The notes below the pieces were generated by a model, which worked only from the letters and a program-made list of their open reading frames with translations, was not told the DNA's origin and searched no databases. This document shows positions 3,593 through 49,967 of a stretch of 64,000 bases of DNA, in pieces. Origin of the DNA: Methanotorris igneus Kol 5 (lineage in GTDB: Archaea; AGJL01; Methanococci; Methanococcales; Methanococcaceae); the NCBI RefSeq assembly GCF_000214415.1, contig NC_015562.1:1589130-1653129 (forward strand), in the 5' to 3' direction. Positions within the stretch are counted from its first letter, which is position 1. Every line of letters starts with the position of its first letter. The position numbers were made by a program, and so were the translations under genes.

Positions 3593-3787
3593 TAGTCGTA
3601 TGCGTTAGAGATTGAAATGAACTATTGGTAAATTCTTAAAGATTTATTCCTTATTTCAAATTTTAAGGAAGGATAATGATTATTTAAAAATTCACTAATG
3701 TATAAATAAGTTTAAAAATCCACTGCAACCTTCGGTTGCAGGGAAGTTGAATAACCGTAGGTTATTCAACTATTCCGCACACGACTA
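3593..3787. mobile_element. MITE-like element 1 (TAGTCG ends, TA duplication)
   Basis: The ends are inverted repeats: TAGTCGTATGCG at the left and CGCACACGACTA at the right, each flanked by TA. No reading frame is inside. The right half holds two small palindromes, CTGCAACCTTCGGTTGCAG and GTTGAATAACC..GGTTATTCAAC. It separates EF-2 from EF-1A, which are normally close neighbours. A further right-end-like sequence (CCGCAAACGACCATA) lies just downstream at about 3809-3823. Confidence 0.75.
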
Positions 3788-7677: not shown

Positions 7678-8031
7678 TGCCGTTTGAAACTGTTTAATTT
7701 TTCATTGACGAATGTGGACATTAATGTATTTTCGTTTTCGAAATTTTTATATATGCGTTTATATACATGTAAATATAAGGATGATGCCTCTGATGAAGGT
7801 GGATACTGGAGACCTAAGGAGGCGGACTTTACTGAGTGTTAAACCTTATGGGCGGAGTCGGGGTTCTCCCGGAGCGAAGCGACGGGAACTTAAAAACCGT
7901 TAGGTTTTTATGTCCGTGACAGGGATGGAGACCGATGATATGTTCCCGATGAACCCAGAGGGAACTGAGGCCGATGACATCCAAGTCCAACGTGGGCATT
8001 TGTCTATGATTGTTCACGTTGGACAGACCCC
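7678..8031 (+). mobile_element. tnpB-less IS605/IS607-type element with orphan omega-RNA region (copy A)
   Basis: The left end GCCGTTTGAAACTGTTT matches the left end of the solo tnpB element at 48577. The right part matches the last ~200 bases of the IS607 element at 14-16 kb, including the tnpB-tail/RNA segment, the stem-GATGAACCCAGAG-stem motif and a terminal hairpin (GTCCAACGTG..CACGTTGGAC) ending ACAGACCCC. No tnpA and no TnpB catalytic region remain. A near-identical inverted copy lies at 38380-38727. A small open frame in it is only the decayed tnpB tail. It probably encodes a structured RNA. Confidence 0.75.
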
Positions 8032-14121: not shown

Positions 14122-14176
14122 GCCTTCCGAAACTGTTATATATTGGATGAGTGTTAGTTATTATTGGTGAGTAAGT

Positions 14177-14806
14177 ATGAGTTTAGAAAGACTATATACG
14201 ATGAAGGAAGCTTGTGAATTGTTAGGAGTTCATATAAAAACACTGCAAAGATGGGATAGAGAGGGAAAGATAAAGTGTGTTAGAACTGTGGGGGGAAAGA
14301 GGAGGGTTCCAGAGAGTGAAATAAAACGAATATTAGGAATTAAAGATAAAGAACAAAGAAAAATTATCGGCTATGCAAGGGTTTCATCTAACACACAAAA
14401 AGACGATTTAGAAAGGCAAATAGACGCGATAAAATCATACGCAAAAGATAGGGACTGGAATATAGAGATATTAAAAGATGTTGGTAGTGGATTAAGCGAA
14501 AAAAGAAAAAACTACAGAAAACTTTTAAAAATGGTTATAAACCGGGAGGTTGAGAAAGTAATAATTGCCTATCCAGATAGATTGACAAGATTTGGCTTTG
14601 AAACATTAAAAGAATTCTTTAAATCTTACGGAACGGAGGTAATCGTTATTAATAAGAAATGTAAGGCTCCACAAGAAGAGTTAGTAGAAGATTTAATAAC
14701 CATTATCTCCTATTTCGCAAGAAAATTATACGGAATGCGTTCCCACAAATATAAAAAACTTATAAAGACAGTTAAAGAAATTGTGGGCGAGAATAATGCA
14801 AAATAA
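14177..14806 (+). CDS. tnpA: IS607-family serine recombinase (TnpA)
   Basis: A 209-residue transposase. Residues 1-55 form a MerR-like helix-turn-helix ([27 protein letters not shown]). A resolvase-type catalytic domain follows, with the nucleophilic serine in IIGYARVSS, then LERQ and the [17 protein letters not shown] arginine region. It ends with the coiled C-terminus typical of IS607 rather than a long resolvase HTH. GGTGAGTA precedes the start. It overlaps tnpB by about 11 bases. Confidence 0.92.
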
Positions 14807-16076
14807 AAACAAACTTCCATCCGAAATCGTATTAACTTACAAGATTAAACATAATTACGATTTAAAAAACTTGTTAGATGGATTTATGAGTACCTCTCAG
14901 AAAGCAGTTGATATTATCTGGGAAAATATCAACTGGAAAGAAAAACAAGTTAAACATCGATTTAAATCTAAAAATAAATACAAATACTACACAACCACCC
15001 GATTAATCCCAGAAATTCCAAAAGATAAGGATTTCAAAAGAGAACTAAGAAATTATTTACTAAATGGATGGAATTTTGCTTCTCATTATGTTGATGGAGC
15101 TATTAAAGTGGCTTATTCAACAATAGAGAGTTGGAAATCGAATTATTTAGATGGTAAAAGAAAAAGAAATAAACCGACATTTAAAAGACCTTTTGTTAGA
15201 GTTAAAAATACCCTAATAAAATACGATAAAGAAAATGGAACGATAAGGATAACGATAAAAGCGAGGAGAGAGTATTTAATCTTAGATATTAAAAATGAAT
15301 GGTTTTTCGAAAAAATTAAAGGTTTTGACATTGGAGAGATAATATTAAAAGACAGTGAAGCATTAATAACCTTTAAAAAACCTTTAAATATATTTGATAA
15401 AAAAGTCGTTATCGGTGTAGATAGCAATCTAAAATCCTTAGATTTATTCCATCCAGAAGAAGGGTGGATTAGAATTGATTTATCTGAACTGCGTAGAATA
15501 AAGAATGTTTATGATGTTATTATCGATAAGTTAAAGTCGATTTATAAAAAAGCCCCAAAAAGAATCAGTATCTTGCTAAAAAAGTATTATAATAGGAGAA
15601 AAAATCGAGTTGAAGATTTTATTAACAAATTAACCTCCCAATTGTCAAAGCTTTTCCCAGATGCAATTTTTATCTTTGAGGATTTGGATAAGCCCAATAT
15701 GTATAAAAATTCGAACTTTAACAGAGATTTAGATAGAACGAGTTGGAGAGAGATAGCGAAAAAGTTAGAGTATAAGAGTATTGTTTTTTACGTTAATCCT
15801 CACTATACTTCAAAAACCTGTCCTATATGCGGGAGTAAAATGGAGTCCCAAGAGGGACAGGTTGTAAAATGTGAAAAATGTGGAGTTTTCAATAGGCAGT
15901 TCGTCGGCTCTTTTAATATCTTTAAAAGAGGAGTTAAATTAGTTAAAAAACTCTTAGGCGGAGTTGGGGTTCTCCCGGAGCGAAGCGACGGGAACTTAAA
16001 AACCGTTAGGTTTTTATGTCCGTGGCTGGGGTGGAGGTCGATGATTTACTCTCCAATGAACCCAGAGGAGAGTTGA
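14796..16076 (+). CDS. tnpB: TnpB, RNA-guided nuclease homologue (non-canonical RuvC-III)
   Basis: A 426-residue TnpB from the ATG at 14796 (an earlier TTG at 14781 lies inside tnpA). RuvC-I Asp is in [12 protein letters not shown], RuvC-II Glu in [10 protein letters not shown], and the zinc ribbon is [15 protein letters not shown]. The segment that normally reads DRDxNAAxNI is [11 protein letters not shown] here, so the usual third catalytic Asp is missing. The last ~28 residues come from a frame shifted by a 47-base palindromic insertion (15971-16017), so this tail is not native. Family TnpBs cut DNA guided by an RNA from the element's 3' end; whether this copy cuts is doubtful. Confidence 0.85.
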
Positions 16077-16169
16077 GACCGATGTCACCCAAGTTCATCG
16101 TGAGGGTTAATTTAAGCGGAAGCACTTTTATTCACATTTACTCCTAAATCCTCACGATGGACAGACCCC
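15955..16169 (+). ncRNA. putative omega/reRNA of the IS607 element
   Basis: The 3' part of tnpB and its downstream sequence are GC-rich and strongly self-complementary: CCCG..CGGG, AAAAACC..GGTTTTT, CTCTCC-AATGAACCCAGA-GGAGAG, and a long terminal stem. The same structure without tnpB is kept at 7.7 and 38.4 kb. In the family such transcripts run to the element's right end and take their guide from the flanking DNA. RNA boundaries are inferred. Confidence 0.6.
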
Positions 16170-26037: not shown

Positions 26038-26089
26038 TATTATATTATAAAAGTGATTAAGAGTGAGTTAAAAAATAAGGATATACGGC

Positions 26090-26365
26090 AAAACCCTTTG
26101 GGTTTTGCCATTAATTTTTAAACTTATTTATATATCAATGAATTTTCAAATAACCTTTATCCTTTCTTAAAATTTGAAATAACACATTAATCCTTAAAAA
26201 TTTACCAAATTATACGGCAAAACCTAAAGGTTTTGCCAAAAGAGGCACTGCCGAGCGTAGCGAGGCAGTGCATCCGATTTGGATGAAACCTTTTTTAAAG
26301 GTTTCTTTCCGAATTATACGGCAAAATCCAAAGGATTTTGCCAAATTTTCTAACGCACACGACTA
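26090..26365. repeat. composite palindrome block ending in a MITE right end
   Basis: Three GGCAAAA(C/T)CC..GGGTTTTGCC-type hairpins (about 26093, 26216, 26321), a GCACTGCC-GAGCGTAGCGA-GGCAGTGC hairpin (about 26244-26270) and AAACC..GGTTT occur here. The interior shares ATTTTTAAACTTATTTATAT and the CTTAAAATTTGAAATAA stretch with MITE copy 6 at 55 kb, and the right edge is CGCACACGACTATA. It looks like an old MITE filled by later palindrome insertions. Confidence 0.55.
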
Positions 26366-32470: not shown

Positions 32471-33508
32471 ATGCCGCTAAGTGAGATTTTAGAAATAAAC
32501 TTGGTAATTTTTGATAAAATGGGTAAAATGTTATTTAGGACAGAAGCATCTGGAAAATTATATGCCATTAAGGAAAAATTTGAATGCTTAATAGAAAAAT
32601 CTGAAGAAATTAACAAGACAATATTTTTTGAAGATGAGGTTCTGTTTGTAATTCCACTTCATGGGGTCTGTCCATCGTGAGGATTTAGGAGTAAATGTGA
32701 ATAAAAGTGCTTCCGCTTAAATTAACCCTCACGATGGACTTGGGTGACATTGGCCTCAACTCTCCTCTGGGTTCATTGGAGAGTAAATCATCGACCTCCA
32801 CCCCAGTCACGGGTACCCCGATTCCGCCTAAGAGTTTTTTAACTAATTTAACTCCTCTTTTAAAGATATTAAAAGAGCCGACAAACTGCCTATTGAAAAC
32901 TCCACATTTTTCGCATGTTACAACCTGTCCCTCTTGGGACTCCATTTTACTCCCGCATACGGGACAGGTTTTTGAAGTATAGTGAGGATTAACGTAAAAA
33001 ACAATACTCTTATATTTTAGCCTTTTTGCAATCTCTCTCCAACTCGTTCTATCCAAATCTTTGTTAAAGTTTGAATTTTTATACATATTGAGCTTATCCA
33101 AATCCTCAAAGATAAAAACTGCATTTGGAAAGAGTTTAGATAGCTGGGAAGTTAATTTATTAATAAAATCTTCAACTCGATTTTTTCTTCTATTATAATA
33201 CTTTTTTAGCAAGATACCAATTCTTTTTGGGGCTTTTTTATAAATCGACTTTAACTTATCGATAATAACATCATAAACCTTCTTTATTCTATGCAGTTCA
33301 GATAAGTCAACTCTAATCTACCCTTCCTCTGGATGGAATAAATCTAAGGATTTTAGATTGCTATCTACACCGATAACGACTTTTTTATCAAATATATTTA
33401 AAGGTTTTTTAAAGGTTATTAATGCTTCACTGTCTTTTAACGAATCACTTATATATGCTTATGAAGATGTCAAAAAATTTATAAACTCTGTTTATAAATA
33501 TAATTAAT
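32471..33508 (+). pseudogene. small gene interrupted by a tnpB remnant
   Basis: The 5' part (32471-32662) encodes MPLSEILEINLVIFDKMG.. and ends ..FFEDEVLFVIPLHG exactly at the transposon edge. Past the remnant, 33441-33508 reads ESLIYAYEDVKKFINSVYKYN and a stop. The alternating beta-strand and final amphipathic helix resemble roadblock/longin-type small proteins that accompany GTPases; this is an inference. The insertion plus deletion makes it non-functional unless rejoined. Confidence 0.5.
32663..33440 (-). pseudogene. truncated tnpB with intact right end and RNA region
   Basis: Closely matches the 3' two-thirds of the IS607-element tnpB (from its residue ~185 on), in inverse orientation. 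The N-terminal part, tnpA and the left end are missing; the junction is at 33440/33441. A Trp codon is mutated to TAG at 33318-33320 (the CTA on the plus strand). It keeps the RuvC-II Glu, the zinc Cys and the [11 protein letters not shown] variant. Unlike the 14.8-kb copy it lacks the 47-base palindrome and so shows the native tail [19 protein letters not shown]. The right-end hairpin (32663-32735) is intact. Confidence 0.85.
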
Positions 33509-36807: not shown

Positions 36808-37123
36808 TAGTCAAGTGCATTATATAGTCGTGTGCGTTAGAAATTGGAATAAAGTGTTAGTAAATTTTTAAAGATTTATGACTTATTTAAAATTTTTTGG
36901 CAAAACTGAAAGTTTTGCCGTATATTTTAAGAAAGGATAAGGACTATTTGGAAATTCATTGGTATATAAATAAGTTTAAAAATCCACTGCAACCTTCGAT
37001 TGCAGGGAAGTTGAATAACTATATTATTCAACTATTCCGCACACGACTATAATTAAACTAAAACTGCAATAAATTTTAACGGCAAAATCAAAGGTTTTGC
37101 CGTATGTCTTCTGCACATGACTA
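36808..37123. mobile_element. nested MITE-like elements (one inside another)
   Basis: The outer pair is TAGTCAAGTGCA at 36808 and TGCACATGACTA ending 37123, each flanked by TA. The inner pair is TAGTCGTGTGCG at 36825 and CGCACACGACTA ending 37049, also flanked by TA. Removing the inner copy leaves an outer copy of about 90 bases with a GGCAAAATCAAAGGTTTTGCC hairpin. The inner copy carries the CTGCAACC/GGTTGCAG-like and TTGAATAA modules of element 1. No coding potential. Confidence 0.7.
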
Positions 37124-38239: not shown

Positions 38240-38379
38240 ATCTTAATCTCTACATATAACATATAATCTAATAGACCGTGTAATATAGAGTGTATATTAG
38301 ATTTGTTAATCAATATTTTTAAATTAGTGAGTGGTATTTTTCACCACTCACACTTCTTAAAAGTATATAAGAAGAAATA

Positions 38380-38727
38380 GGATCTGTCCAACGTGAACAA
38401 TCATAGACAAATGTCCACGTTGGACTTGGATGTCATCAGCCTCAGTTCCCTCTGGGTTCATCGGGAACATATCATCGGTCTCCATCCCTGTCACGGACAT
38501 AAAAACCTAACGGTTTTTAAGTTCCCGTCGCTTCGCTCCGGGAGAACCCCAACTCCACCCATAGGTTTAACACTCAGTAAAGTCCGCCTCCTTAGGTCTC
38601 CAGTATCCACCTTCATCAGAGGCATCATCCTTATAGTTATATATATAAACTCATATATAAAAATTTTGAAAACGAAAATACATTAATGTCCACATTCGTC
38701 AATGAAAAATTAAACAGTTTCAAACGG
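38380..38727 (-). mobile_element. tnpB-less IS605/IS607-type element with orphan omega-RNA region (copy B)
   Basis: Inverse-oriented, near-identical copy of 7678-8031. It keeps the left end GCCGTTTGAAAC (38716-38727), the 47-base palindromic module (38499-38545), the GATGAACCCAGAG stem motif and the terminal hairpin GTCCAACGTG..CACGTTGGAC (from about 38385). It has inserted next to a GGCAAAATCC hairpin that belongs to a MITE-like right end (ACATGACTATA at 38761). No protein is encoded. The spacer 38240-38379 shows nothing else. Confidence 0.75.
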
Positions 38728-38800
38728 CAAAATCCAAAGGTTTTGCGTATGTCTTCTACACATGACTATAATTTTAAATAGTTGTTGGGATGGGTTTGTT

Positions 38801-43872: not shown

Positions 43873-43948
43873 TCACTATTATTAATTCAAATAAAAATTT
43901 CTAAAAGTTAAGAACAATTAAGGAAATTTTAACGTAAACAACTTTATA

Positions 43949-43972
43949 CGGCAAAACCCTTGGGTTTTGCCA
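43949..43972. repeat. GGCAAAACC palindrome
   Basis: A single GGCAAAACCC-TT-GGGTTTTGCC hairpin lies between the converging rnp3 and unknown membrane-protein genes. It is the same module as elsewhere in the window. It could terminate transcription but lacks a T tract. Confidence 0.55.
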
Positions 43973-43985
43973 TTTATTTTATAAG

Positions 43986-48576: not shown

Positions 48577-48696
48577 GCCGTTTGAAACTGTTTAATTATA
48601 CATAGACATTTATGAACATTTGTGAGTAAATATTGAAGAAATTTTTAAATATTTGATAATACTATAATCCTACTAAAAAAACAAACAACGATTACT

Positions 48697-49935
48697 ATGC
48701 CCAATAAGACAAAATCAAAAGGGACTCAGGAATTATCCTATCAAGTCGTTCTATCTTACAAAGTTAGTCACAACTATCCACTTAAAACGTTCTTAATCGA
48801 ATGCAAAGATAAGTTAAACGAATGCATAGACATGATTTGGAATAACATAGAATACACTAAAAAAGATAAACCAAAATTGCCAAAATCAAACGAATTCAAA
48901 AGAAATCTAAGAAACAAACTCTTAGAAAATTGGAGTTATGCCTCTCACTACATCGATGGGATTATAAAAACCTCCTATTCCATCCTACAAAGTTGGGCTT
49001 CGAACTACAAAAGAGGTTATAGAACTAAAACAAAACCAGTAGTAGAGAGGTTATTCGTTAGAGTTAAAACAACCCTAATAAAATACGACAAAGAAAGAGC
49101 GGAGATAAGAATAACGATAAAACCAAGAAAAGAGTATTTAACCTTAAACATCAAAAATGAATGGTTCTTCGATAAGGTTAAGGACTTAACAATTGGAGAA
49201 ATTATTTTAAAGGAAAATGAAGCGTTTTTAACCTTCAAAGATAATCTAAACTATTCAGACAAAGATATAATCGTTGGAGTAGATAGCAATCTAAAATCCC
49301 TCGACTTATTCCATCCGATAGAGGGTTGGATAAGGATAGATTTAACCGAATTACACCGACTTAAAGAAGTTTATGATAAAAAGATTGATGGGCTTAAAAA
49401 ACTGCTTAAAAAATGTCCTTTAAGAGTTTTGAGAAAGATAAATAGGTTATTCGAAAGAAGGAGAAATAGGGTTAAGGACTTTTTACACAAACTTACAACA
49501 CAATTATCTCGACTATTTCCGGATGCAATTTTTGTCTTCGAGGATTTGAATAAGAGAAGGATGTATAAAAATAAACACTTCAATAGAAGAATAGATAGAG
49601 CGAATTGGAATGGAATAATCGAAAAAATAAGTTATAAGGCGGTTGTTATCTTAGTTAATCCTGCCTACACTTCAACGACCTGTCCTATATGCGGGAGTAG
49701 AATGGAGTCCCAAGAAGGGCAGGTTGTTTGCTATAATTGTTCAAACTCTTTTAATCGCCAAGTAGTTGGCTGTTTTAATATTTTTAAACGAGGTTTGGGT
49801 GCAATCAAAAGATTTATGGGTGGCTCTGGGGTTACCACGACAGGGGCAGAGGTCTCTGCTAAGGGACTGATGACGCCCAATCCCAACGTAGTTTATTATG
49901 TGGATTTAAATGGCAAATATCTTAAATGTATATAA
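48697..49935 (+). CDS. tnpB: TnpB of the solo element (non-canonical RuvC-III)
   Basis: A 412-residue TnpB. RuvC-I Asp is in [13 protein letters not shown], RuvC-II Glu in FVFEDLNKRRM, and the zinc ribbon is CPICGSRM..VVCYNCSN. The third catalytic position is again altered: FNRQVVGCFNIFKRG in place of DRDxNAAxNI. The tail GVTTTGAEVSAKGLMTPNPNVVYYVDLNG is encoded by the right-end structure and resembles the native tail of the 32.7-kb pseudogene. The frame is intact. Activity as a nuclease is uncertain; RNA-guided binding remains possible. Confidence 0.85.
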   Translation: MPNKTKSKGTQELSYQVVLSYKVSHNYPLKTFLIECKDKLNECIDMIWNNIEYTKKDKPKLPKSNEFKRNLRNKLLENWSYASHYIDGIIKTSYSILQSWASNYKRGYRTKTKPVVERLFVRVKTTLIKYDKERAEIRITIKPRKEYLTLNIKNEWFFDKVKDLTIGEIILKENEAFLTFKDNLNYSDKDIIVGVDSNLKSLDLFHPIEGWIRIDLTELHRLKEVYDKKIDGLKKLLKKCPLRVLRKINRLFERRRNRVKDFLHKLTTQLSRLFPDAIFVFEDLNKRRMYKNKHFNRRIDRANWNGIIEKISYKAVVILVNPAYTSTTCPICGSRMESQEGQVVCYNCSNSFNRQVVGCFNIFKRGLGAIKRFMGGSGVTTTGAEVSAKGLMTPNPNVVYYVDLNGKYLKCI

Positions 49936-49967
49936 TTGTCCATATTTGACTACGTTGGGAGAACCCC
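49740..49967 (+). ncRNA. putative omega/reRNA of the solo tnpB element
   Basis: GC-rich, self-complementary end of the element overlapping the tnpB 3' end, including GCAGAG..CTCTGC and the CCCAACGTAG terminal stem. It is placed by analogy to the structured 3' end of the other copies; exact ends unknown. The spacer 49968-50137 holds only a degenerate GGCAAAACC hairpin. Confidence 0.45.

Follow-up and report, generated by a model that had tools for sequence, protein, structure and literature searches.

The 64-kb stretch of Methanotorris igneus Kol 5 DNA analysed here (the window) carries two copies, A and B, of a repeat of about 350 bp, together with a complete IS607-family element encoding TnpA and TnpB, a truncated tnpB remnant and a tnpB-only element (Table 1). 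A and B are 97.1% identical across their full length and lie in opposite orientations. Their short reading frames matched no Pfam family, and a coding role for these frames was dropped on that ground. The preliminary description, which saw here near-identical, inversely oriented copies of a protein-less element, is borne out in these respects; it overlooked the chief point, that the 350-bp repeat corresponds to the end of a TnpB element that specifies its RNA.

Table 1. Features of the window discussed in the text (positions are those of the window)
Feature	Position	Strand	Remarks
Copy A, whole element, 352 bp	7680..8031	+	
Complete IS607-family element, tnpA and tnpB	14123..16169	+	
tnpA, serine recombinase (MerR HTH and Resolvase)	14177..14806	+	1.4e-75 to solved M. 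jannaschii MJ0014
tnpB, RNA-guided nuclease family	14781..16076	+	3' end overlaps omegaRNA
omegaRNA domain of complete element	15957..16169	+	
Truncated tnpB remnant with omegaRNA end	32663..33440	-	
Presumed guide of copy B, 20 nt of host flank directly past right end	38359..38378	-	putative role, after the TnpB literature
Copy B, whole element from left to right end, 349 bp	38379..38727	-	CC core at 38726-38727
Putative omegaRNA/reRNA scaffold domain of copy B, 181 nt	38379..38559	-	ends at insertion core
Terminal hairpin beside guide	38386..38425	-	compensatory change in 9 of 11 counted pairs across the family
K-turn-like element GACC-GATGA..TGA-GGCT with stem	38438..38480	-	putative, modelled on the K-turn consensus
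Optional two-hairpin insert, about 47 nt	38497..38544	-	only within these elements
P0 hairpin region GCCTC..GAGGC	38574..38633	-	homologous to hairpin in tnpB zinc-finger codons
Two TATA-like boxes (TTTATATA)	38642..38661	-	presumed archaeal promoter
Imperfect host palindrome adjoining left end of copy B	38726..38747	.	
tnpB-only element, second TnpB type	48578..49967	+	left end nearly as in A and B

A DNA search of the M. igneus genome (1,854,197 bp, single contig) with B returned 45 places, nine of which are full-length copies. They occur in a longer form of about 350 bp (five copies, pairwise 97.1-99.4% identical) and a shorter form of about 304 bp (four copies, 94.7-100% identical); L014 and L015, both of 304 bp, are 100% identical and occupy unrelated sites. 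A sister protein-less family numbers 16 copies in the same genome, 13 of them about 260 bp long (93.4-99.2% identical over 78 pairs) and three with an additional nested insert. With three further protein-less relatives that have both ends (L018, L019 and L024), the genome holds 28 protein-less elements with both ends, as against about ten near-full tnpB genes. We compared the 400-bp flanks of 31 elements (62 flanks), all against all, and found them unrelated: the sole long match, 255 bp at 78%, is out of register with the junctions, and the rest are short repeats. Segmental duplication, which the preliminary description had set against transposition, is therefore excluded as the source of the copies. 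Its suggestion that a protein-less element moved recently between unrelated places holds, given identities of 97-100%, unrelated flanks and an empty site (see below). A search of a plasmid collection gave no match to the element copies; a plasmid of Methanocaldococcus sp. FS406-22 carries a related TnpB (80%).

All these protein-less elements have a 3' domain in common with the IS607-family TnpB elements of the same genome, and the last ~180 bp of A and B recur at the 3' end of the tnpB gene of the complete element. The TnpB of that element matches Pfam Cas12f1-like_TNB and OrfB_IS605, and shows weak but significant matches to solved TnpB. Near-full TnpA genes number four in the genome; TnpB matches number 36, about ten of them near-full, six being of one type and four of the tnpB-only type. 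A serine-recombinase TnpA is present in the related complete element and is not encoded by A or B. Having no encoded protein, B is thus an IS607 derivative and not a complete member of the family. The right end of A and B is shared with the complete IS607 element, whereas the left ends (GTTTGAAACTGTTTAA versus TTCCGAAACTGTTATA) have mainly GAAACTGTT in common. On this side A and B are closer to the tnpB-only type, which is without a tnpA of its own, than to the IS607 element having TnpA, and the cognate transposase is therefore uncertain.

Thirty-eight left-end junctions were tabulated. CC is found at all 38, preceded by G in 36 cases and by C in two. In the window, G precedes 604 of 4467 CC dinucleotides (13.5%), and the corresponding P for the G|CC junctions is about 3e-29. 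Right ends read GACAGACC-CC and are followed by host DNA; that of copy B is altered, with GATCCT where others have GACCCC, as a result of which the outer helix of the RNA described below has three wobble pairs. Insertion occurs at G^CC without target duplication, around a 2-bp GG/CC core of the kind expected of IS607. Transposition at GG without duplication has been reported for IS607 (PMC6188088); GG as read from the opposite strand is the CC found here on the transcript strand. Neither of the strict marks of a MITE, terminal inverted repeats and target duplication, was found: the two ends differ and the duplication is absent.

At locus L010, flanks joined by a single CC restore a frame of 140 codons, whose product has a Pfam CBS match from 83 to 138, spanning the joint at 102. 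The joined DNA aligns gap-free at the joint with that of a relative, G021, and orthologues are uninterrupted over residues 1-125 in 13 of 21 other family genomes, the M. igneus gene being split. The joined L010 sequence represents the empty site, a CBS gene restored by removal of the element. Comparison with G021 gave no empty site for copy B: the gene to one side of it is 82% like that of G021, but the region upstream of this gene does not align. The joined frame at L015 (180 aa) was dropped as proof of an empty site, with neither a Pfam match nor a relative in the 21 other family genomes. At L043 (G000:885369), a tnpB element splits what appears to be the start of an FAD-binding gene; the join reads VYKIA-VIGGGPAG, an FAD-binding motif recognised by eye. 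The CCCC at the right end of one TnpB-type element is itself the exact insertion site of a tnpB element (L022, G000:539574).

The preliminary description had also reported hairpins beside copy B and beside the IS607 element at 14.1 kb, and took them as a hint of target preference. Both hairpins are present: the left end of B adjoins an imperfect palindrome, GGCAAAATCC..GGTTTTGCG, and that of the IS607 element adjoins AAAACC..GGTTTTGCC. The preference, however, does not stand. GGCAAAAYC..GRTTTTGCC palindromes number 147 genome-wide (none in the reversed control) and, with one mismatch per arm allowed, six of 38 left ends adjoin one, the other 32 lying elsewhere. Against all GCC sites, with genes and intergenic regions pooled, 2.7-3.4% of sites are at palindromes and the six junctions appear enriched (P 0.0004-0.001). 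But most insertions are intergenic (23 of the 31 tested), and among intergenic GCC palindrome ends make up 18-20% of sites (176-200 kb sampled; 28% in the window alone). The expectation is then 6.4-7.0 palindrome-adjoining junctions among 36 (10.0 at the window-alone rate), a figure possibly about a quarter too high, the sample around elements being palindrome-denser than the genome mean (102-132 versus 79 per Mb), and still about 5 once corrected; six are seen (P of six or more, 0.64-0.73). The palindrome is the commonest kind of intergenic GCC and no preference is left. We accordingly reject targeting of the GGCAAAACC..GGTTTTGCC palindrome, which we regard as very improbable. The 147 palindromes often lie in close pairs, for example at 26073-26345 and 43936-43984, in the manner of a REP-like family.

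To describe the 3' domain as an RNA, we aligned 28 right-end sequences drawn from four families of the M. igneus genome, related genomes and one MAG. RNAalifold predicts three helices, in which 98.5% of 588 cells are paired versus 88.8% after shuffling, with 12 pairs changed on both sides (73 such cells). None of 500 shuffles equalled the RNA on paired cells or double changes, and slid controls paired at most 53.7% of cells; further standard pair types were in no excess over shuffles (349/500). The outer helix, GGGGTY/RACCCC, takes in the CC core of the insertion. This suggests a reason for which the IS607 core must stay CC here, namely that the outer RNA helix is closed by those bases. The structured RNA overlaps the 3' end of tnpB and continues to the right end, a structure and position that fit a putative TnpB omegaRNA/reRNA. 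Rfam provided no known family for the scaffold: the window gave no match at the gathering score, and four loci gave none at E 0.1. The two-hairpin insert is found at 30 genome places, all inside these elements and at the same RNA position, and its presence or absence varies within each of three families. An extra second-family RNA copy without this insert, with a P0-like hairpin upstream, was observed at L031 (G000:365152-365260).

A second covarying hairpin, P0, lies upstream of the RNA domain in many elements. Scored at the best register or match per sequence, with shuffles equally free, P0 has 229 of 240 cells paired over 30 sequences (shuffled maximum 209; 0/2000) and 126 of 136 over 17 protein-less sequences (shuffled maximum 120; 0/2000), where it is preserved with lineage-specific compensation. 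Of 61 distinct RNAs, 30 have the K-turn-like motif with its covarying stem, and in these stems 109 of 120 cells are paired (shuffled maximum 100), a count that likewise takes the best register or match per sequence and in which the shuffles did not have the same freedom. Compensatory changes are seen out to 180 nt and beyond, counted from the right end, and they differ among protein-less lineages of different genera. Further upstream, the M. igneus family of A and B and a Methanocaldococcus (G033) family each have two TTTATATA boxes, at element positions 67 and 79, and the sister family has one TTTATATA box at position 70. We infer from these TATA-like boxes an archaeal-type promoter for the RNA.

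A covariance model of the RNA domain was searched against 36 genomes of the class. Matches were obtained in 19 genomes, 44 in M. igneus and 67 elsewhere, and 40 of the latter regions were examined with their surroundings. No TnpB body is found upstream in 20 of these 40; one region, L165, is cut by a contig end, leaving 19 of 39. These loci are distributed as eight in G033, five in G028, three in G032, two in G035 and one in G021, L127 and L155 being without a clear left end and L162 being degenerate. Protein-less RNA loci therefore occur in at least five of the 18 other Methanococci genomes having the RNA. In one protein-less copy from G035 (L148), the terminal hairpin strand is duplicated at the right end.

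The identity of A and B as IS607 derivatives with a TnpB RNA is well supported. We consider it probable that they are non-autonomous derivatives mobilised in trans, each supplying TnpB with a guide derived from its own flank. What remains of each element is its left and right ends and, between them, a presumed archaeal promoter and a structured RNA. TnpA from the few complete IS607 elements would act in trans, excising and inserting copies by an exchange of 2 bp at CC, with G^CC as target and no duplication. Transcripts begun at the left end would cross the right end and continue into the host flank, and the right flank of each copy would act as its guide. TnpB, provided in trans, would cut the empty G^CC site after excision, and repair would restore the copy, as has been described for complete TnpB elements (PMC11870625). 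In this scheme, promoter activity, the action of TnpA in trans and, on the side of TnpB, its loading, its cutting and the retention of copies are predictions from sequence, and the weakest link is the left end of A and B with respect to the only TnpA found. We may also hypothesize, with chances that we judge to be even, that these are widespread guide-RNA-only transposons consisting of promoter, omegaRNA and ends, programmed by their flanks, equipped with a larger guide RNA, and dependent on borrowed TnpA to move and on borrowed TnpB, likewise in trans, to be retained in a homing-like way. The added 5' hairpin may then be the zinc-finger codon hairpin of tnpB, and the K-turn may recruit L7Ae.

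Alternatively, A and B may be ordinary deletion derivatives similar to MITEs or PATEs, mobile by virtue of their two ends, in which the RNA is a remnant or answers a need at the DNA level and guides nothing. TnpA alone reportedly suffices for IS607 movement (PMC6188088), and ORF-less, multi-copy derivatives of TnpB elements have been described in haloarchaea (PMC3119063). Moreover, recent copies give no sign of extra constraint on the RNA: the share of variable sites is no lower within the omegaRNA than in the part upstream of it (13/182 versus 15/173 in family f1, 14/156 versus 17/109 in f2 and 9/134 versus 6/169 in the G033 family, none significant), and present-day selection on the RNA is therefore not shown. 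Against a guideless remnant stand the compensatory changes so far from the right end, including those in P0 and the K-turn-like motif, their lineage-specific character between genera, and a TATA-like box at the same place in each family, and we regard this explanation as rather unlikely. A host-used or regulatory non-coding RNA, spread by transposition and kept for another role, would also bear a promoter and K-turns that bind L7Ae. The P. abyssi sRkB and sRkC RNAs, repeats with kinship to an OrfB 3' end, are reported to be expressed and to bind L7Ae (PMC3124441), and the K-turn-like motif in 30 of our 61 distinct RNAs agrees with such a role. Yet places and flanks differ among copies, copy number varies among genomes, and all 31 flank-derived guides compared differ from one another, as selfish movement predicts. 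A host function thus appears improbable, and mobilisation in trans with flank-derived guides is the reading that we retain.

Several parts of this picture are already known, the nearest precedents being the P. abyssi sRkB/sRkC RNAs, PATEs and ORF-less IStrons. Archaeal RNAs that have kinship to TnpB, encode no protein and possess promoters and K-turns are described in PMC3124441: sRkB and sRkC are, like the present elements, protein-less archaeal repeats with kinship to OrfB/TnpB 3' ends, and have a promoter about 24 nt upstream. Two of six loci are expressed according to that report, which, in the part drawn on here, does not treat them as mobile elements whose ends are mapped. The present elements, analysed as sequence, exist in 25 or more copies, some of them recent and near-identical, with their ends mapped and a core and an empty site identified. 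Deletion derivatives are also on record, as PATEs (PMC3119063) and as ORF-less IStrons (PMC4227781). PATEs of Haloquadratum, such as HqIRS71, are described as IS605-type elements with near-terminal DNA palindromes and a target of 4-6 bases (PMC3119063), whereas the elements studied here are of IS607 type, with a CC core and RNA covariation. The related TnpA is a serine recombinase, not the tyrosine transposase of IS605 elements with subterminal palindromes, and the only DNA palindrome at A/B-type ends is the right-end hairpin, which covaries as RNA. ORF-less IS607-type IStrons such as BcISt1 variants resemble our elements in multi-copy ORF loss and in IS607 ends (in A and B, mainly the right one); they are bacterial and contain a group I intron (PMC4227781), which is absent here, as there was no Rfam match in the window or the four loci.

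Further parallels are the reRNA of the IS607 TnpB of ISXfa1 and the RAGATH-18-derived reRNAs (PMC10711439, PMC11061315). As proposed here, those reRNAs are described as crossing the right end, with a fixed core nucleotide in the scaffold and the right flank as guide. They are bacterial, are encoded with TnpB and have GGG or AGGAG/GAGGG as TAM according to these reports, whereas our elements have GCC in the direction of transcription and a scaffold without Rfam match. There is also a report of circular omegaRNAs from archaea (PMC12558985). In the literature searched we met no such element with its ends, core and empty site mapped, and no precedent for its recent multi-copy spread, for the covarying RNA without Rfam match or for the presence in several genera.

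These elements offer a natural test of whether TnpB can act for elements lacking a tnpB gene. Should protein-less copies persist thanks to TnpB provided in trans, the omegaRNA would be a portable selfish module whose copy number can outgrow that of nuclease genes. The covarying RNA, absent from Rfam, would aid the annotation of many Methanococci repeats, among them stretches that can at present be read as no more than tnpB fragments. Finally, a nested insert with inverted ends ATAGTTGTGTGCG..CGCACACAACTAT was observed within the hairpin insert at L044:3084-3310, L045:2861-3087 and L046:2006-2284, and related pieces form the window repeats at 3660-3755 and 36924-37019.
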